Positions 1,258 to 42,957 of a stretch of 45,310 bases of DNA are shown piece after piece. Below the pieces are notes generated by a model. It was not told the origin of the DNA and did not search any database. It was given only the letters and a program-made list of their open reading frames with translations. Origin of the DNA: Candidatus Ancillula kalotermitis (GTDB lineage Bacteria > Actinomycetota > Actinomycetes > Actinomycetales > Bifidobacteriaceae); NCBI GenBank assembly GCA_031273495.1, contig JAISRT010000024.1, positions 1 to 45,310 of the forward strand, written 5' to 3'. Within the stretch, counting starts at the first letter, position 1. Each line of letters opens with the position of its first letter. The translations under genes were made by a program, and so were the position numbers.

Positions 1258-1296
1258 ACTTCTGAATTTTAACGCCAATTTGACATACTGCAGTGC

Positions 1297-1302
1297 TATA
1301 CT
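1297..1302 (+). promoter_or_regulatory. extended -10, 6 nt before aspS ATG
   Basis: agtgcTATACTcaagatATG. Confidence 0.8.
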
Positions 1303-1308
1303 CAAGAT

Positions 1309-3174
1309 ATGAATAATTACAGGACAAAGTATTGCGGTGAGTTGTTGGCTGAGAATGCTGGCGAAGAGGTGGTATTATCTGGCTGGATTGACCGCCGGCG
1401 AGACCACGGCGGCGTGGCGTTTATTGATTTACGTGACAAATCAGGCGTCGCACAAGTCGTCATAAATGATGAAGCGGTGGCACACCCGTTGCGCAGTGAA
1501 TTCGTGTTGAAAATTACTGGAAGGGTGCGCAAACGGCCCGAAGGGCAGGAGAACCCACGTCTGAGTTCAGGTGAAATTGAGGTCGAGGCAACCGATGTAG
1601 AGATACTAAATGAGTCCTCTGCGTTGCCGTTCCAGGTGTCGACTGCTCTTGAAGAAGCAACTGACGAAAAGGTCGGTGACGAAGTGCGCCTCAAGTTCCG
1701 TTACCTTGACCTCAGGCGTCCTGCACTAGCGAACGCACTGCGCTTGAGGGCTAAAGTTTCCTCGACTGCACGCCGCGTTCTAGACGAGTTAGGGTTTGCG
1801 GAGTTCGAAACGCCAACTTTGATCCGCTCGACGCCCGAAGGTGCCCGAGATTTTATCGTGCCCGCACGGCTTTCTCCAGGTTCGTGGTACGCACTGCCTC
1901 AGAGTCCGCAACTTTTCAAGCAGTTGTTGCAGGTGGCTGGCTTCGAGAAGTATTACCAGATTGCCAGATGCTATCGCGATGAAGATTTCCGTGCGGACCG
2001 CCAGCCCGAGTTCACGCAGCTCGATGTGGAGGCTTCGTTTGTCGGCGCTGAGGACATTTATGCCCTGACCGAAAGGCTAATGGGTGAACTTTTCGCGCTT
2101 ATTGACATTAAACTGCCCAGTGTGTTTCCCAGAATTTCTTTTGCGGATGCGATGAACAGTTATGGCTCGGATAAACCTGACTTGCGGTTTGGTAACCCTA
2201 TCGTTGAGTTGACGGAGTATTTCAAAGACACTGAGTTTCGCGTATTCCAGTCGGACTATGTCGGCGCAGTAGTTTACCCAGGTGGGGCAAGCCTCCCTCG
2301 TCGTCAGTTTGATGCCTGGCAGGAGTGGGCGAGGAGCCGCGGTGCGAAAGGGCTAGCATATGTGCAGTTTAATGAGTCTGAACTCGGAGGTCCAGTAGTC
2401 AAAAATCTTAGCGAAAAGGAGCGTGAAGGTCTACTCAAAGCAGTCAACGCTAAGGAAGGTGACGCCGTTTTCTTCGCTGCGGGTGAGCGCGTCAAGTCTC
2501 AAGAGCTACTCGGTGCGGTCCGTGTTGAAATAGCACAGCGTCTCGGTGTAATAGACCGTCATCTAACAGGTAATACTGCTCCTGACACCGCGATAGAGGA
2601 CCAATTGATGAAAGATGCACCATTTGAAGTTCTGGTGGGTAAGGATGGCAGAAAATGGTCAATTGTCTGGGTGGTTGACTTCCCAATGTTCAAGTCTACG
2701 GCACTAGCCAAAGGTGAAGGTGACGTTGCGGTCGGCGGTGGCGAGTGGACTGCGGTTCATCATGCTTTCACAGCGCCTATTGATGTTGAAGGCTTTGACA
2801 AGGACCCCGAAAATGCATTGAGCGATTCGTATGATATTGTCCTGAATGGCAATGAGATAGGCGGTGGGTCTATCCGCATCCACAGTCGTGACGTCCAAGA
2901 GCGAGTATTTAGACTGATGGGCATTGATGAAGATGAGGCGCAGGAGAAGTTCGGCTTCCTGCTTGACGCGTTCAAATATGGGGCACCTCCCCATGGTGGA
3001 ATTGCTTTCGGGTGGGATCGTATCGTTGCCTTGATGGCTGGAGTTGCTTCGATTCGTGATGTGATAGCGTTTCCCAAGACTGGAAATGGCGTAGATTTGA
3101 TGCAAAAGTGCCCTGCGAAGATAACTGATGAACAGAGGGCGGAAGCTGGAGTGGATTATGAGGATCTAGATTAG
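1309..3174 (+). CDS. aspS: aspartyl-tRNA synthetase (bacterial type with GAD domain)
   Basis: N-terminal OB fold ([31 protein letters not shown]), class II motifs ([27 protein letters not shown]), C-terminal [29 protein letters not shown]. Confidence 0.97.
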
Positions 3175-14982: not shown

Positions 14983-16138
14983 CTTTTACCGCGTCGGCAA
15001 CTATTTCTGCAAGGTTCGGCGTAAACACACTCGGGATAATGTTTGCCGTGTGTAACTCGTCGTCACTCATTGAATACGCTAATGCATTAACTGCCGCCAA
15101 CTTCATCTCGTCGGTAATTCTGGTCGCCCTCGCTTCGAGTGCCCCCTTAAAGATGCCAGGAAACGCAATCACATTGTTGATTTGGTTGTCGAAGTCGCTA
15201 CGCCCACTACCGTAGATTTTAGCGCCGTTCTCTAGTGCCACATCTGGCATAATTTCTGGCGTCGGGTTAGAGAGTGCGAATATCACTGAGTCTTCGCGCA
15301 TTTTTTTAACATCGGCCGCAGTAAGAACATTTGGCGCCGACACACCGATGAATAAATCCCTGCCTTCTACCGCATCGCTCAACGTCTGAATCTGCTCTGA
15401 AAACGCATAACCACGAGCGTTCTTGAGTTCTACTGCAAGTTCACGCTTTTCGTCATTTATGCCCTCACGTGTAGAATGGATTGCACCTCGAGAATCACAA
15501 ATCAGTATGTCCTTAACACCGACCTTGAGCAACATTTTCGCAATAGAAATACCAGCCGCACCAGCACCATTAATCACTGCCTTCACCTCGGAGAGCGGTT
15601 TTGCCACCAGACGAAACGCATTGATTACCGCCGCGCAGACAACAATTGCCGTGCCGTGTTGGTCATCGTGGAAGACTGGGATGTTAAGTCGCTCGACTAG
15701 TGCCCGCTCAATCTCGAAACACCTTGGCGCAGAGATGTCCTCAAGGTTTATGCCACCGAAAGTGGGCTCCAGCAACTCAACGGTTCTGACTATTTCATCA
15801 ACATTCTGAGTCCGCAAGCAGATCGGGAACGCGTCCACGCCAGCAAACTCTTTGAATAGTGCACACTTACCCTCCATAACAGGCATCGCGGCTTCAGGAC
15901 CAATATTGCCGAGGCCCAACACAGCAGAGCCATCAGATACTACTGCGACAGTGCGTCCTTTTAGTGTTAACTGGTTCGCGCGCTGTACGTCCTCAGCGAT
16001 TGCGCGACAAGGCTCAGCGACACCCGGTGTGTACGCGATTGACAACTCGTCTTGTGTAGTAATTGGCATGCGCGACTTCACCTCAAGTTTTCCTTGATGC
16101 TTCAGGTGCTCCGCAAGTGCAGTTTGAAAATAGTCCAT
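14972..16138 (-). CDS. malic enzyme (malate dehydrogenase, oxaloacetate-decarboxylating)
   Basis: IAYTPGVAEPCRAI, VAVVSDGSAVLGLGNIGPEAAMPVMEGKCALFKEFAGVDAFPICL, NIPVFHDDQHGTAIV, IFALSNPTPEIMPD. Confidence 0.95.
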   Translation of the reverse strand: MDYFQTALAEHLKHQGKLEVKSRMPITTQDELSIAYTPGVAEPCRAIAEDVQRANQLTLKGRTVAVVSDGSAVLGLGNIGPEAAMPVMEGKCALFKEFAGVDAFPICLRTQNVDEIVRTVELLEPTFGGINLEDISAPRCFEIERALVERLNIPVFHDDQHGTAIVVCAAVINAFRLVAKPLSEVKAVINGAGAAGISIAKMLLKVGVKDILICDSRGAIHSTREGINDEKRELAVELKNARGYAFSEQIQTLSDAVEGRDLFIGVSAPNVLTAADVKKMREDSVIFALSNPTPEIMPDVALENGAKIYGSGRSDFDNQINNVIAFPGIFKGALEARATRITDEMKLAAVNALAYSMSDDELHTANIIPSVFTPNLAEIVADAVKGAI

Positions 16139-16144
16139 ATCAGC

Positions 16145-16150
16145 AGTATA
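16145..16150 (-). promoter_or_regulatory. extended -10, 6 nt before malic enzyme ATG
   Basis: reverse strand: agtgcTATACTgctgatATG. Confidence 0.8.
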
Positions 16151-16344
16151 GCACTAACTTCATTCGCAGGGCGGCGAAGCCACCCTGACGAATTTAGTAA
16201 GTGCTATTCATAACAAATTTAACTTCGAGAGGAAGAACCGCTGCGCTCGCGGGCGGGCGGGTGCGTCTCAGGGTCCCGCGCGCTAGCGCGGGTGGACGCC
16301 GAGCTCTCCTCCCGCTTATTTGCCAAACTCGCAAGCGAGTTTGA
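16145..16344 (-). repeat. composite repeat C/D ending at the malic enzyme -10 box
   Basis: reverse strand: ggtcaaactcgcttgcgagtttggcaaataagcgg...gcagcggttcttcctctcgaagttaaatttgttatgaatagcactta...ccctgcgaatgaagttagtgctatact. Confidence 0.93.
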
Positions 16345-33327: not shown

Positions 33328-33434
33328 TCCATTAAGGGGCCACGGCCCCCCGCCACCCATGTGGCCAGTGTAGCATGAAGTCGGGGCAGAAAGGCGTCAA
33401 GTGTGTGCTGTGGTTAATAAGTGTGGTTTTTATT
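33328..33434 (+). repeat. repeat family A unit between tlyA and ARH-Nudix gene
   Basis: ccattaaggggccacggccccccgccacccatgtggc...gtggttaataagtgtggtttttat. Confidence 0.95.
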
Positions 33435-33474
33435 GGGCAAAGAGGTTCTGCGATATGTAAATGGAATAATCTGC

Positions 33475-34881
33475 ATGTTTTCTCGTTATAAAGTAATGTT
33501 TGGCGCGCTGTTTGGTGATATAATCGGGAGTACATATGAGTCTGTCCCAGCTTTTGGGTCTGATTTCGATTTGTTTCCTGCCAGTGCGCATTGGACCGAC
33601 GACTCTGTCTTGACGATTGCGACGACGGTCGCCTTGCGTAAATGCCGTGAATTGGGTGCCGAAAGAGCGCGTAACTCCAACCATAGTATTGACGATATAA
33701 GTTTGCGTGAAGTTTGGCCTGATGCACTAACAGACGACGAGATTTCTGTCATTTTTCGAGAATGCTACGCTAAGTATGCAATCATGAATCCTCGTTCGGG
33801 GTTCGGCGGTATGTTCTACGAGAAGTGGCTTGTCGAAAAGAACTTTGTGCCCTACAACTCTTTTGGGAATGGTTCCGCTATGCGTGTTTCGCCAGTGGGT
33901 GAGTATTTCATTCGCGAAGAGCAAGTGCTAAGGTTCGCTAAGTTATCAAGCGCCGTGACTCATGACCATCCTGAAGGCGTAAAAGCCGCACAAGCAGTCG
34001 CACTAGCAGTTTTTCTGGCGCGAAGAGGGTGTACGAAACGCGAAATTCGTGATCGGCTTGTCAAAATGTTCGGGTATGACGAGGCTCCGTATCTAGTCAA
34101 TAGACAGTATGACGAGGTTAAGAAAGGTAGTGTTTGGTCAGAGCGCGCAATGGACTCAGTGCCTGAGGCGATCATCTGTTTTCTGGAGTCGACAAGCTTC
34201 GAAGACTGTGTTCGCAAGGCGGTGTTCCTACAAGGTGACGCGGATACTCAGGCTGCCATTGCTGGCTCAATTGCCTATTCATACTACAAAACCGAGGTCC
34301 CAGAGCATATTGTTGTCCCCGGGATGCGCATAATAACAGGCAGGTTTAACGACGAGATTCGGGCATGGCAACGCGACGAGCAGACGGCGAATTTGCATCA
34401 TAACGGCGACGGTTTCATAAACTGCGAGGGGTGCAAGAAGACGCATTGGGGAGTGAATGGCGCCGCGGGAATGCTTATCGCGCAGACGGAACGCAAAAAA
34501 GTGAAGGCGATTTTATTGCAGTTGCGCAGTCTAGACACTATAATGGGTGGGACTTGGGGTAATCCAGGCGGTGCGATTGACAACGGAGAGTCTGACGAAG
34601 AAGGTGCGCTGCGCGAGGCGTATGAGGAGGCGAATGTTCTTCCGGAAAACATTACGGTGCTCGGCAAAATTGTGCGTGACCATATCAACTGGAAGTTCAC
34701 GACATTCCTTGCGGTTGAGGATCCTGAATGCCCAATAGACCCTGCAGATAACGACAATGAGGCAGTTACCGTCCGTTGGGTGCGCCTTGAGGAGCTTGAC
34801 GAGATTGAACTACTGCCCGCCTTGAAAGATGAACTCCCCGAACTGTTACACGCACTTGAGGACGCTTTGCAGTCAAACTGA
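33475..34881 (+). CDS. fusion: ADP-ribosylglycohydrolase (DraG/ARH-like) + Nudix hydrolase
   Basis: FGALFGDIIGSTYES, HWTDDSVLTIAT, SAVTHDHPEG, QGDADTQAAIAGSIA; then Nudix box GAIDNGESDEEGALREAYEEANV. Start may be 33496. Confidence 0.9.
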   Translation: MFSRYKVMFGALFGDIIGSTYESVPAFGSDFDLFPASAHWTDDSVLTIATTVALRKCRELGAERARNSNHSIDDISLREVWPDALTDDEISVIFRECYAKYAIMNPRSGFGGMFYEKWLVEKNFVPYNSFGNGSAMRVSPVGEYFIREEQVLRFAKLSSAVTHDHPEGVKAAQAVALAVFLARRGCTKREIRDRLVKMFGYDEAPYLVNRQYDEVKKGSVWSERAMDSVPEAIICFLESTSFEDCVRKAVFLQGDADTQAAIAGSIAYSYYKTEVPEHIVVPGMRIITGRFNDEIRAWQRDEQTANLHHNGDGFINCEGCKKTHWGVNGAAGMLIAQTERKKVKAILLQLRSLDTIMGGTWGNPGGAIDNGESDEEGALREAYEEANVLPENITVLGKIVRDHINWKFTTFLAVEDPECPIDPADNDNEAVTVRWVRLEELDEIELLPALKDELPELLHALEDALQSN

Positions 34882-34890
34882 AAGAGGTGC

Positions 34891-34896
34891 TATAAT
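34891..34896 (+). promoter_or_regulatory. extended -10, 6 nt before in-frame ATT 34903
   Basis: ggtgcTATAATagtgaaATT. Confidence 0.75.
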
Positions 34897-34902
34897 AGTG
34901 AA

Positions 34903-36120
34903 ATTAGCACAGGAAAATCTGCGGCTCTACGGTCTTTAACGGCGCTTCTTCTCGGATGCGTTGCGGGTTTTGTCGCCGTTTTTTTGCACCGGATGTGGCT
35001 AAATGCTGTCCTGCCGTTCGGGTTTATCATCGCAATTTTAGGGCTCTTCTGCGCTGGTGTCGTCGTTCGGGCGTATCTTGGCAAAAACTTCACGTACATC
35101 TTTGCGCTTTCCGTTTCGCTGAGTATTTTCTTCCTCGGAACGCTCTCTTCGGGTGACACACTCATCCTCGCTGGCACGATTGAAGGGGAGAAAGGGTATG
35201 CAGGGCTAGTCGGTGTGTGTTTGATGCTCTTCTCGTTCATCTTCCCGTTCCTTGCCTGTCTGCTGCCTGAGAAGTTGTTCACACGGCGTCTGCGTGCTCC
35301 GATTTGGCGAGTTCCTGACGCTGACCTGCAGTTTATGCTCTCGATTGTTGAGATTACCGACGTTATGCTGGAAACCGCGTTTTTGAGCGGTAAGTTCAAG
35401 GCTGAAACTAAGTCGGATTCCACACCTGTGACCGAAGTTGACCGCGACATCGAGAAGTATATTCGAAGTCATATCGAGAGGAAGTTCCCCAACGACGGCA
35501 TACTGGGAGAAGAAGGTGACGACAAACCAGCAAAAAACGGCAGCACGAGGCGGTGGATTGTCGACCCAATTGACGGGACCAAGAATTTTGTCCGTGGCGT
35601 TCCGATCTGCGCAACGCTTATTGCACTCGAGGACGAGGTGACGCTCGAAAATGGTGAACGCATCATCAAGCCAATAAAGTCAATCGTTTCGGCACCACTG
35701 CTGAAGACGCGCTATTGGGGTGTTTCTGATGCTAAAGTGCAGCTCGCCTTCAAGCAGTTTGACCAGTCGAAGCCCGTGCGGATTGAGGTTTCTGGAATAT
35801 CTGACCCGCAGGACGGGACAATTTCTATATCTTCAAGAGGCGGGTGGGCGCAGAATGGGCGCGCGGATTTTATCGACGGTTTGACAAGACGGTTTGCTCG
35901 TACGCGTGGGTTCGGCGACTTCTTTTCGTATATGCTACTTGCACAGGGGAGCGTCGATTGTGCTACTGAACCAGACTTAGAGCTCTATGATATTGCGGCA
36001 CTACTTCCGATCGTCGAGGGTGCAGGCGGTAGGCTAGTTGATGTTGACCAGAATGCTTGGACTACTCGCGCCGGGATACGCTCTGCGCTTGCGACTAATG
36101 GTGCCCTGACACTCACATAA
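34903..36120 (+). CDS. N-terminal multi-TM domain fused to inositol-monophosphatase-like (HisN/histidinol-phosphatase-like) domain; putative ATT start
   Basis: Hydrophobic N-terminus SLTALLLGCVAGFVAVF...; IMPase motifs GEEGDD, WIVDPIDGTKNFVRG, YDIAALLPIVEGAGG. Only in-frame conventional start is TTG 34984, which would remove TM1. Confidence 0.8.
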   Translation: MSTGKSAALRSLTALLLGCVAGFVAVFLHRMWLNAVLPFGFIIAILGLFCAGVVVRAYLGKNFTYIFALSVSLSIFFLGTLSSGDTLILAGTIEGEKGYAGLVGVCLMLFSFIFPFLACLLPEKLFTRRLRAPIWRVPDADLQFMLSIVEITDVMLETAFLSGKFKAETKSDSTPVTEVDRDIEKYIRSHIERKFPNDGILGEEGDDKPAKNGSTRRWIVDPIDGTKNFVRGVPICATLIALEDEVTLENGERIIKPIKSIVSAPLLKTRYWGVSDAKVQLAFKQFDQSKPVRIEVSGISDPQDGTISISSRGGWAQNGRADFIDGLTRRFARTRGFGDFFSYMLLAQGSVDCATEPDLELYDIAALLPIVEGAGGRLVDVDQNAWTTRAGIRSALATNGALTLT

Positions 36121-36141
36121 CTTCGGTTTGCGCCCCTCTAT

Positions 36142-36352
36142 TGTCATCCTTGGGCACACTGCCCCTTCATGTCATCCCAGCGTAGCGTGGCATAAAGCCA
36201 AGGGCAGGCGCGGCTTGTCCGTCCCATGTCATCCTTGGGCAGTCCGCCCCATGTCATCCTTGGGCACACTGCCCCCTCATGTCATCCTTGGCTTTATGCC
36301 GAGGATCTACTGACACGATGTACTCTATGTACCCTCGGGACAAGCCCAAGTG
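36142..36352. repeat. repeat family B cluster, multiple units
   Basis: tgtcatccttgggc repeated; tgtcatccttggctttatgccgaggatct; cctcgggacaagcccaag. Confidence 0.92.
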
Positions 36353-36690
36353 TGACAGAATGGGTCAAACTCGCTTGCGAGTTTGGCAAATAAGCGGAAG
36401 AGGGGTGTCGCGTCCACCCGCGCGCTAGCGCGCGGGACCCTGAGACGCACCCGCCCCAGCGGCGGACAGCGTAGCGAATAGGCGCTCGATTCATTCGGCG
36501 CCGTCAATGAGCGGAGTGTGCTTGAGAAGTGTGAAACACTTCGAGGTCCGCGCCGGAAAGCGACGATATAGCGAGCGTAGCGAGCGCTGAGGAGCGAGGC
36601 TCAAAGCGTGAGCAGCGGTTCGTCTCCCTGACGATTAATCTGTTATGAATAGCACTTATTATTCCGGAGGAAAATTTGCGAATGAAGTCA
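36352..36690 (+). repeat. composite repeat C/D copy A
   Basis: gtgacagaatgggtcaaactcgcttgcgagtttggcaaataagcgg...gttatgaatagcacttat...gcgaatgaagt. Confidence 0.88.
36417..36436. repeat. 20-bp perfect palindrome inside composite repeat copy A
   Basis: CCCGCGCGCTAGCGCGCGGG. Confidence 0.98.
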
Positions 36691-36971
36691 AATATGGTCA
36701 AACTCGCTTGCCAGTTTGGCAAATAAGCGGAAGGAGAGCTCGAGAGGAGAGCGCAGCGGTTCTTCCTCTCGAAGTTAAATTTGTTATGAATAGCACTTAC
36801 TGAATTCGCCGCATTTGGTTCGATCGCTCCGCGCTCTCATTACGCCCCTCGCACAGGCTTCGCCAGTGCTCAAACACACTCCACTCGCTTTACGCCGCCG
36901 AATAAATCGTCGGCTGCTCGCTACGCTGGGCATGTGCTTCGCCACCCTGCGAATGAAGTTAGTGCTATACT
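36691..36971 (+). repeat. composite repeat C/D copy B ending at the TPM gene -10 box
   Basis: ggtcaaactcgcttgccagtttggcaaataagcgg...cagcggttcttcctctcgaagttaaatttgttatgaatagcacttactgaattcg...ccctgcgaatgaagttagtgctatact. Confidence 0.93.
36966..36971 (+). promoter_or_regulatory. extended -10, 6 nt before TPM gene ATG
   Basis: agtgcTATACTacagatATG. Confidence 0.8.
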
Positions 36972-36977
36972 ACAGAT

Positions 36978-40634
<3,657 letters not shown>

Positions 40635-42349: not shown

Positions 42350-42883
42350 TTATCGCTCGTCAAGCACTGCGCGAACTATATCCTCAACGCTGGCTAGTGC
42401 GCCACGTCCCTCCACTCCACACGCTAGTCGGGCTGTCCGCGGCTCGATGACTTCCCAGCCGCGGTTTCGCAAAGTTTCTAGGTTACTGCGGGTTGCAGCG
42501 TTCTCAAGCATCACGGTGTTCATTGCGGGGGCGACCACTTTCCTTGTCGCGTCGGGGAGTGCGAGAACCATAGAGCTTAACTGGTCGTCAGCAATGCCGT
42601 GCGCAATTTTAGCGATGATGTTCGCGGTTGCGGGGGCCAAGCAAAATACATCGACACTCTGCGGAAGGTCAACGTGCACAATTTTCTCTGCCACTGGTTC
42701 GTCAAGCACATCGAGATAGACATAATTCTGGCTCAGCGCTTGCATAGTCAGTGGTGTGATGAACCCGCAGGCATGCTTACTCATTACCACGCTCACTTCG
42801 ATATCACGTTTTTTGAGCGCAGAAACAACATCGGCCGCCTTGTATGCAGCAATCGATCCAGAAACACCGAGCAGTACCTTAAT
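42350..42883 (-). CDS. coaC: phosphopantothenoylcysteine decarboxylase (CoaC domain only); putative ATT start
   Basis: IKVLLGVSGSIAAYKAADVVSALKKRDIEVSVVMSKHACGFITPLTMQALS, LAPATANIIAKIAHGIADDQLSS, APAMNTVML. Confidence 0.9.
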   Translation of the reverse strand: MKVLLGVSGSIAAYKAADVVSALKKRDIEVSVVMSKHACGFITPLTMQALSQNYVYLDVLDEPVAEKIVHVDLPQSVDVFCLAPATANIIAKIAHGIADDQLSSMVLALPDATRKVVAPAMNTVMLENAATRSNLETLRNRGWEVIEPRTARLACGVEGRGALASVEDIVRAVLDER

Positions 42884-42889
42884 TCCATT

Positions 42890-42895
42890 AGTATA
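42890..42895 (-). promoter_or_regulatory. extended -10, 6 nt before in-frame ATT of coaC
   Basis: reverse strand: tcgtgcTATACTaatggaATT. Confidence 0.75.
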
Positions 42896-42957
42896 GCACG
42901 ACACCCCTCTTCCGCTTATTTGCCAAACTCGCAAGCGAGTTTGACCCATTCTGTCAC
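42890..42957 (-). repeat. truncated composite repeat C abutting the coaC promoter
   Basis: reverse strand gtgacagaatgggtcaaactcgcttgcgagtttggcaaataagcggaagaggggtgtcg identical to 36352-36410, then tgctatact. Confidence 0.95.

Follow-up and report, generated by a model that had tools for sequence, protein, structure and literature searches.

Candidate leaderless starts at ATT, ATA and ATC codons in an Ancillula-like genome

The window (the whole stretch of 45,310 nucleotides that was analysed) contains a gene, hisN, whose frame runs open through a promoter and past an ATT codon placed where a leaderless message would have its first triplet. This raises the question of whether translation can start on this ATT, and whether hisN is alone in doing so.

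The 5' end of hisN

The product of hisN (34903-36120, plus strand, 405 codons plus stop) is a fusion of a membrane domain with a HisN domain. TIGR02067 (his_9_HisN) aligns with residues 142-387 (E=8e-60) at 202 bits, below the curated cut-off of 275, and PF00459 matches with E=2e-36, placing the protein in the inositol monophosphatase family. The frame is open to 36117 from the TGA of the upstream gene (34879-34881), which lies just 5' of the promoter. This upstream gene (33421-34881, plus strand) itself joins two domains in one frame, an ADP-ribosylglycohydrolase (PF03747) and a NUDIX domain (PF00293).

Read directly from the sequence, the hisN promoter consists of an extended -10 element, TGC-TATAAT (34888-34896; TGC 34888-34890, TATAAT 34891-34896), a discriminator of six nucleotides, agtgaa (34897-34902), and the ATT (34903-34905), which is the proposed start codon and also the predicted transcription start. 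The -10 box is thus so close that transcription would begin at the first codon, with the same spacing of six nucleotides (N6) as in leaderless ATG genes. An AGAGG (34883-34887) is 15 bases away from the ATT and upstream of the predicted transcription start, while a Shine-Dalgarno sequence would be expected 4-10 bases before the start codon. The original prediction had compared this geometry with coaC, and the N6 spacing is indeed present in both: the coaC promoter TGC-TATACT-aatgga-ATT (42881-42898, minus strand; TATACT 42895-42890, ATT 42883-42881) leads into the second candidate leaderless ATT frame of the window (42350-42883, minus strand, 177 codons plus stop), to which TIGR02113 aligns from residue 2. 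Three leaderless genes with the same promoter geometry and an ATG serve for comparison: TGC-TATACT-N6-ATG 1309 (1294-1311, plus strand), TGC-TATACT-acagat-ATG 36978 (36963-36980, plus strand) and TGC-TATACT-gctgat-ATG 16138 (16136-16153, minus strand), the latter two behind a dispersed promoter repeat.

A scan of the frame found TTG 34984-34986 as the sole conventional in-frame start ahead of the conserved part of hisN and, as predicted, its use would cost the first hydrophobic segment. The fusion is present in three congeners (48-52% identity over residues 12-400), and all three (G001, G002, G003) retain transmembrane segment 1, up to FLHR, and with it the segment between 34903 and 34984. Counted back from FLHR, the G002 gene begins with GTG AAA AAA TCT, one codon off the position of the ATT. 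The reading of hisN must therefore begin near 34903, and TTG 34984 was rejected, as it would delete the conserved segment. A search of the genome contigs for a second copy of hisN returned only more distant homologues. The fusion is common to the genus; in other genera (G010, G015, G017), the membrane domain matches stand-alone frames.

We consider it highly probable that the hisN mRNA is leaderless, that fMet-tRNA(CAU) starts on its 5'-AUU and that leaderless messages of this lineage need only a 5'-AU-. TGC-TATAAT would drive hisN and place the RNA 5' end on the A of the ATT or on an adjoining base, leaving no leader.

Candidate ATT, ATA and ATC starts across the genome

The genome is a single metagenome-assembled genome of one strain (1,070,202 bases, about 50% G+C, 81% complete), in which local errors are possible. 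The extended -10 motif TGNTATAMT occurs 415 times, compared to 80 times in the reversed control, and many of these boxes feed leaderless ATG genes at exactly N6. TATAMT-N6-ATT is found 51 times versus 6 times in the reversed control, in agreement with the earlier argument that two identical geometries make coincidence less likely, and TGNTATAMT-N6-ATH, with ATH being ATT, ATA or ATC, 71 times versus 4 times.

Codon statistics were obtained from a 366-kb sample of the genome, taken in stretches, plus sites located by search; the triplet at N6 behind TGCTANAHT was scored as open if the frame beginning there ran for 100 codons or more. Within the 366-kb sample, the N6 codon opens such a frame in 38 of 44 cases for ATG and in both cases for GTG, and also in 10 of 19 cases for ATT, 5 of 12 for ATA and 1 of 5 for ATC. 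Together, 16/36 ATH codons are open versus 9/91 other non-start triplets (p=3e-5, same sample), and most of these nine can be explained otherwise, either by an ATG or TTG that coincides with the following codon or is close to it, or by a location within a gene. A chance origin of the N6-ATH starts is ruled out by these codon statistics together with the relatives described below.

The sample and the sites outside it gave 28 open ATH frames. Six doubtful ones were set aside (atpA, the secreted protein at C10:21929, the epimerase fragment L145, ruvB, the GT2 L158, and L159), leaving about 22 credible candidates. Predicted to start with ATT are prfB, tpiA, proA, trpE, tilS, coaC, hisN, a GT8 and a signal-peptide protein; with ATA ispF, lepA, metF, alr, nadK, glgX, two glycosyltransferases, a cpaB-like protein and an hgdC-like protein; and with ATC priA, ispG and a sigma-like factor. 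Some of the gene names are backed by profile searches, the remainder were assigned by reading the sequence. The genome scan suggested with the original prediction thus supports ATT as a leaderless start and points to ATA and ATC in addition. Some twenty genes would be affected, housekeeping genes among them, and gene finders limited to ATG, GTG and TTG would mis-call or truncate them.

The orthologues of congeners support these positions. For metF (two genomes) and alr (three genomes), the congener ATG is at offset 0, the very position of the ATA in this genome; the predicted N-termini are Met followed by KRNFTLSFEVMPPR for MetF and Met followed by EHFPAR for Alr. Conventional congener starts are at -1 relative to the ATN codon for coaC (in G002, an ATG one codon from the ATT), prfB, ispG and priA, at -2 and -4 for ispF, at -3 for tilS and, as GTG, at -2 for tpiA. 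Family profiles (NCBIfam) begin at residues 2-6 of ispF, coaC, tpiA and prfB.

Relatives and competing readings

Could these genes be leadered and translated from an in-frame GTG, TTG or ATG further downstream, with the ATN at the transcription start being coincidental? ATT and ATA are in fact common as transcription start triplets of leadered genes, for example of atpA and groES in this genome and also in G001, and usable conventional codons lie slightly downstream in ispG, lepA, the hgdC-like gene, ruvB and one GT2. However, a downstream start would remove conserved N-terminal elements of hisN, metF, ispF, nadK, coaC and alr. In metF, the next conventional codons (GTG 10, ATG 11) fall behind the Glu of 'SFE', which we take to be the catalytic Glu of MTHFR. 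The relatives argue in the same direction. In G001, which has leaderless ATG genes as well, none of 20 N6-ATH sites opened a frame, the sites being leadered genes, tRNA genes or other sequence; in G003, G010, G016, G021 and G032 it was one of 20, with an ATG six codons on. Across G001 and these five other relatives, 39 of 40 ATN transcription start triplets run into stops rather than into long frames. A downstream start is therefore an improbable explanation. Open N6-ATH frames amount to 28/84 in this genome and to 1/40 in the six relatives (p=4e-5, with a slightly looser -10 used for the set of this genome), and because of this difference the use of ATN starts appears, as judged from the genomes, to be specific to this lineage.

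A slightly smaller chance is left to a one-base deletion, by assembly error or mutation, near 34901-34905 of hisN. The discriminator contains an out-of-frame GTG (34898), preceded by AGAGG at a distance of ten bases, that opens a short frame (GTG AAA TTA ... TAA 34937), and insertion of a single base would bring it into the hisN frame as GTG AAA (A)TT AGC, similar to the GTG AAA AAA TCT of G002. Against this, discriminators with TG at -4/-3 are recurrent (agtgat, actgat, agtgga; A(C/G)TGNN) and alike in ATG and ATH genes; the very spacer of hisN, agtgaa, precedes an ATG at C10:13590. Moreover, there are intact ATN genes with spacers that contain no start codon (prfB ataagt, metF tgtatc, priA tgttaa, lepA aggtca).

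It is very unlikely that the true starts are located further upstream in frame and read from another transcription start. In-frame conventional codons upstream of the ATN are found in coaC (GTG -21, TTG -51, ATG -66), alr (ATG -45), the GT8 and trpE. But hisN, prfB, metF, nadK, ispG, priA, tilS, glgX and others have no in-frame ATG, GTG or TTG in the stretch from the preceding stop to the ATN, and upstream reading would mean translating the -10 box. Least probable of all is that fMet-tRNA engages the 5'-AUN and is lost, with translation resuming from the second codon to give proteins without fMet: such drop-off-reinitiation is known from in vitro work on weak pairing at the third position (PMC10158994), but it would remain 5'-AUN-dependent initiation.

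Leaderless initiation at ATN thus stays the preferred reading, with promoter geometry, codon position relative to orthologue starts, the number of genes and the absence in relatives as its basis at the sequence level. Are such starts also used behind a Shine-Dalgarno sequence? Scans of this genome for AGGAG and GGAGG found genes starting with ATG, TTG and GTG and no ATH start that lacked a nearby conventional codon. With the strictest filter, ATH starts account for 5/34 leaderless and 0/32 Shine-Dalgarno-led genes; as this contrast has p=0.054, a confinement of AUN starts to leaderless messages is suggestive only. We regard it as likely, with less confidence than for hisN itself, that one Ancillula-like lineage, probably Ancillula kalotermitis, starts leaderless messages on any 5'-AU-N while leadered messages keep AUG, UUG and GUG. 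If true, start-codon choice would relax by initiation route, with two start-codon rules in one cell.

Initiation machinery, known systems and promoter repeats

The initiator tRNA is found at the end of contig C20, cut by the contig end; its anticodon is CAU, on an anticodon stem of the usual GGG/CCC form. The stems of two more CAU tRNAs mark them as elongator or Ile tRNAs. An initiator tRNA with altered anticodon was considered and rejected, as only the CAU form is among the tRNAs found, and so was a loss of IF3 or IF1, as both are present. Inspection of infC, another check proposed at the outset, found an intact IF3 that carries 11 private substitutions in conserved columns; its gene (L170, C28:5341-5592) has an apparent TTG start after AAGGAG. 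IF1 has unusual residues (PNCHF for PNAMF, VIDAH where others have VxLAH or VLAT, and GRIKYRYK); the row labelled Eco in its alignment is a bait sequence and carries no weight. The IF1 gene (L293, C1:20264-20452, minus strand) is itself leaderless with an ATG. The 16S rRNA was looked for in the assembly and is absent from it.

In the proposed mechanism, a 70S (or 30S) ribosome carrying fMet-tRNA(CAU) would accept 5'-AU plus any third base: AUG would be the commonest start of leaderless messages, and AUU, AUA and AUC would also function. Third-position proofreading, normally by IF3, would be bypassed or weak on these messages. IF3 demands Watson-Crick pairs at positions one and two in vitro and is less strict at position three (PMC10158994), which fits the AUN set of starts; leaderless initiation is reportedly less dependent on initiation factors (PMC9031893).

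Several known systems share parts of this pattern. Mammalian mitochondria have leaderless mRNAs, use AUA, AUU and, in some species, AUC as starts beside AUG, lack IF1 and carry f5C34 in tRNA-Met for AUA. The genome resembles them in its leaderless messages and, by comparative evidence, in AUA, AUU and AUC starts in several genes, and differs in that IF1 and IF3 are present and the initiator tRNA is, judged by its sequence, ordinary; neither a changed initiator tRNA nor a lost initiation factor is seen. Starts of this kind have until now been linked to animal mitochondria; if true, this would be a bacterial parallel, with a leaderless rule converging on that of mitochondria. In Escherichia coli, infC and pcnB start with AUU, but each of these is an isolated, leadered gene that uses the rare codon for control, unlike the many unrelated leaderless genes here. 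Deinococcus deserti has isolated non-canonical starts. Deinococcus also has -10-adjacent ORFs, in which a TANNNT placed 6-7 bases ahead of the ORF yields a leaderless mRNA, a geometry as found here; in contrast, the start codons described for them are conventional (PMC12340547). Leaderless translation is also established in Actinobacteria, of the same phylum, including mycobacteria (Shell et al. 2015, PMC4633059); there the -10 element likewise adjoins the start, and leader and Shine-Dalgarno sequence are missing. In Mycobacterium smegmatis, leaderless translation is started only by ATG or GTG, and ATT functions only with a Shine-Dalgarno leader (PMC4633059). Given this limit, the organism studied here would differ: the predicted 5' codon of hisN is ATT 34903, and across the genome ATT, ATA and ATC appear as 5' codons in about 22 genes while GTG is rare. 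If true, this would contradict the mycobacterial rule that leaderless translation requires AUG or GUG.

Ancillula kalotermitis Kf353_bin77 (1.07 Mbp, 49.22%) was obtained from the termite Kalotermes flavicollis and belongs to a lineage of Bifidobacteriaceae that is associated with flagellates (PMC11707648). The terms leaderless and start codon are both absent from that paper, which lists OR396858 for the 16S rRNA of the species (PMC11707648). The bacterium studied here probably lives inside termite-gut protists. The contrast with genomes of the same genus makes a genetic cause searchable.

A dispersed repeat, GCGAATGAAGTT(A/T)GTGC-TATACT, contains the extended -10 and ends immediately before start codons; it may be a spreader of leaderless promoters. 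Its sites are at 36965 and 16150 (minus strand) in the window, at C7:28261 and C10:15756, and on C15, C24 and C14. Ending in GCGAATGAAGTTAGTGC-TATACT, it stands directly 5' of several ATN genes (prfB, tpiA, ispG, glgX) and of several ATG genes; hisN is not among them. By spreading, a repeat that carries a promoter in this way could make new 5' ends that need only AT at the junction. Intergenic space (36120-36960 and other regions) is filled by short repeats such as gtcatccttgggc, with 31 copies in 366 kb. At L133, L149 and L153, the predicted transcripts begin with ATATG, so that two bases separate the AUG from the predicted 5' end. A repeated promoter block, gggTGCTATAATagacatATTATGG..., is found in G001 ahead of near-identical coding starts at L175, L183, L187, L190, L191 and L192; these starts (MDKNAYRN-like) apparently represent a gene family.
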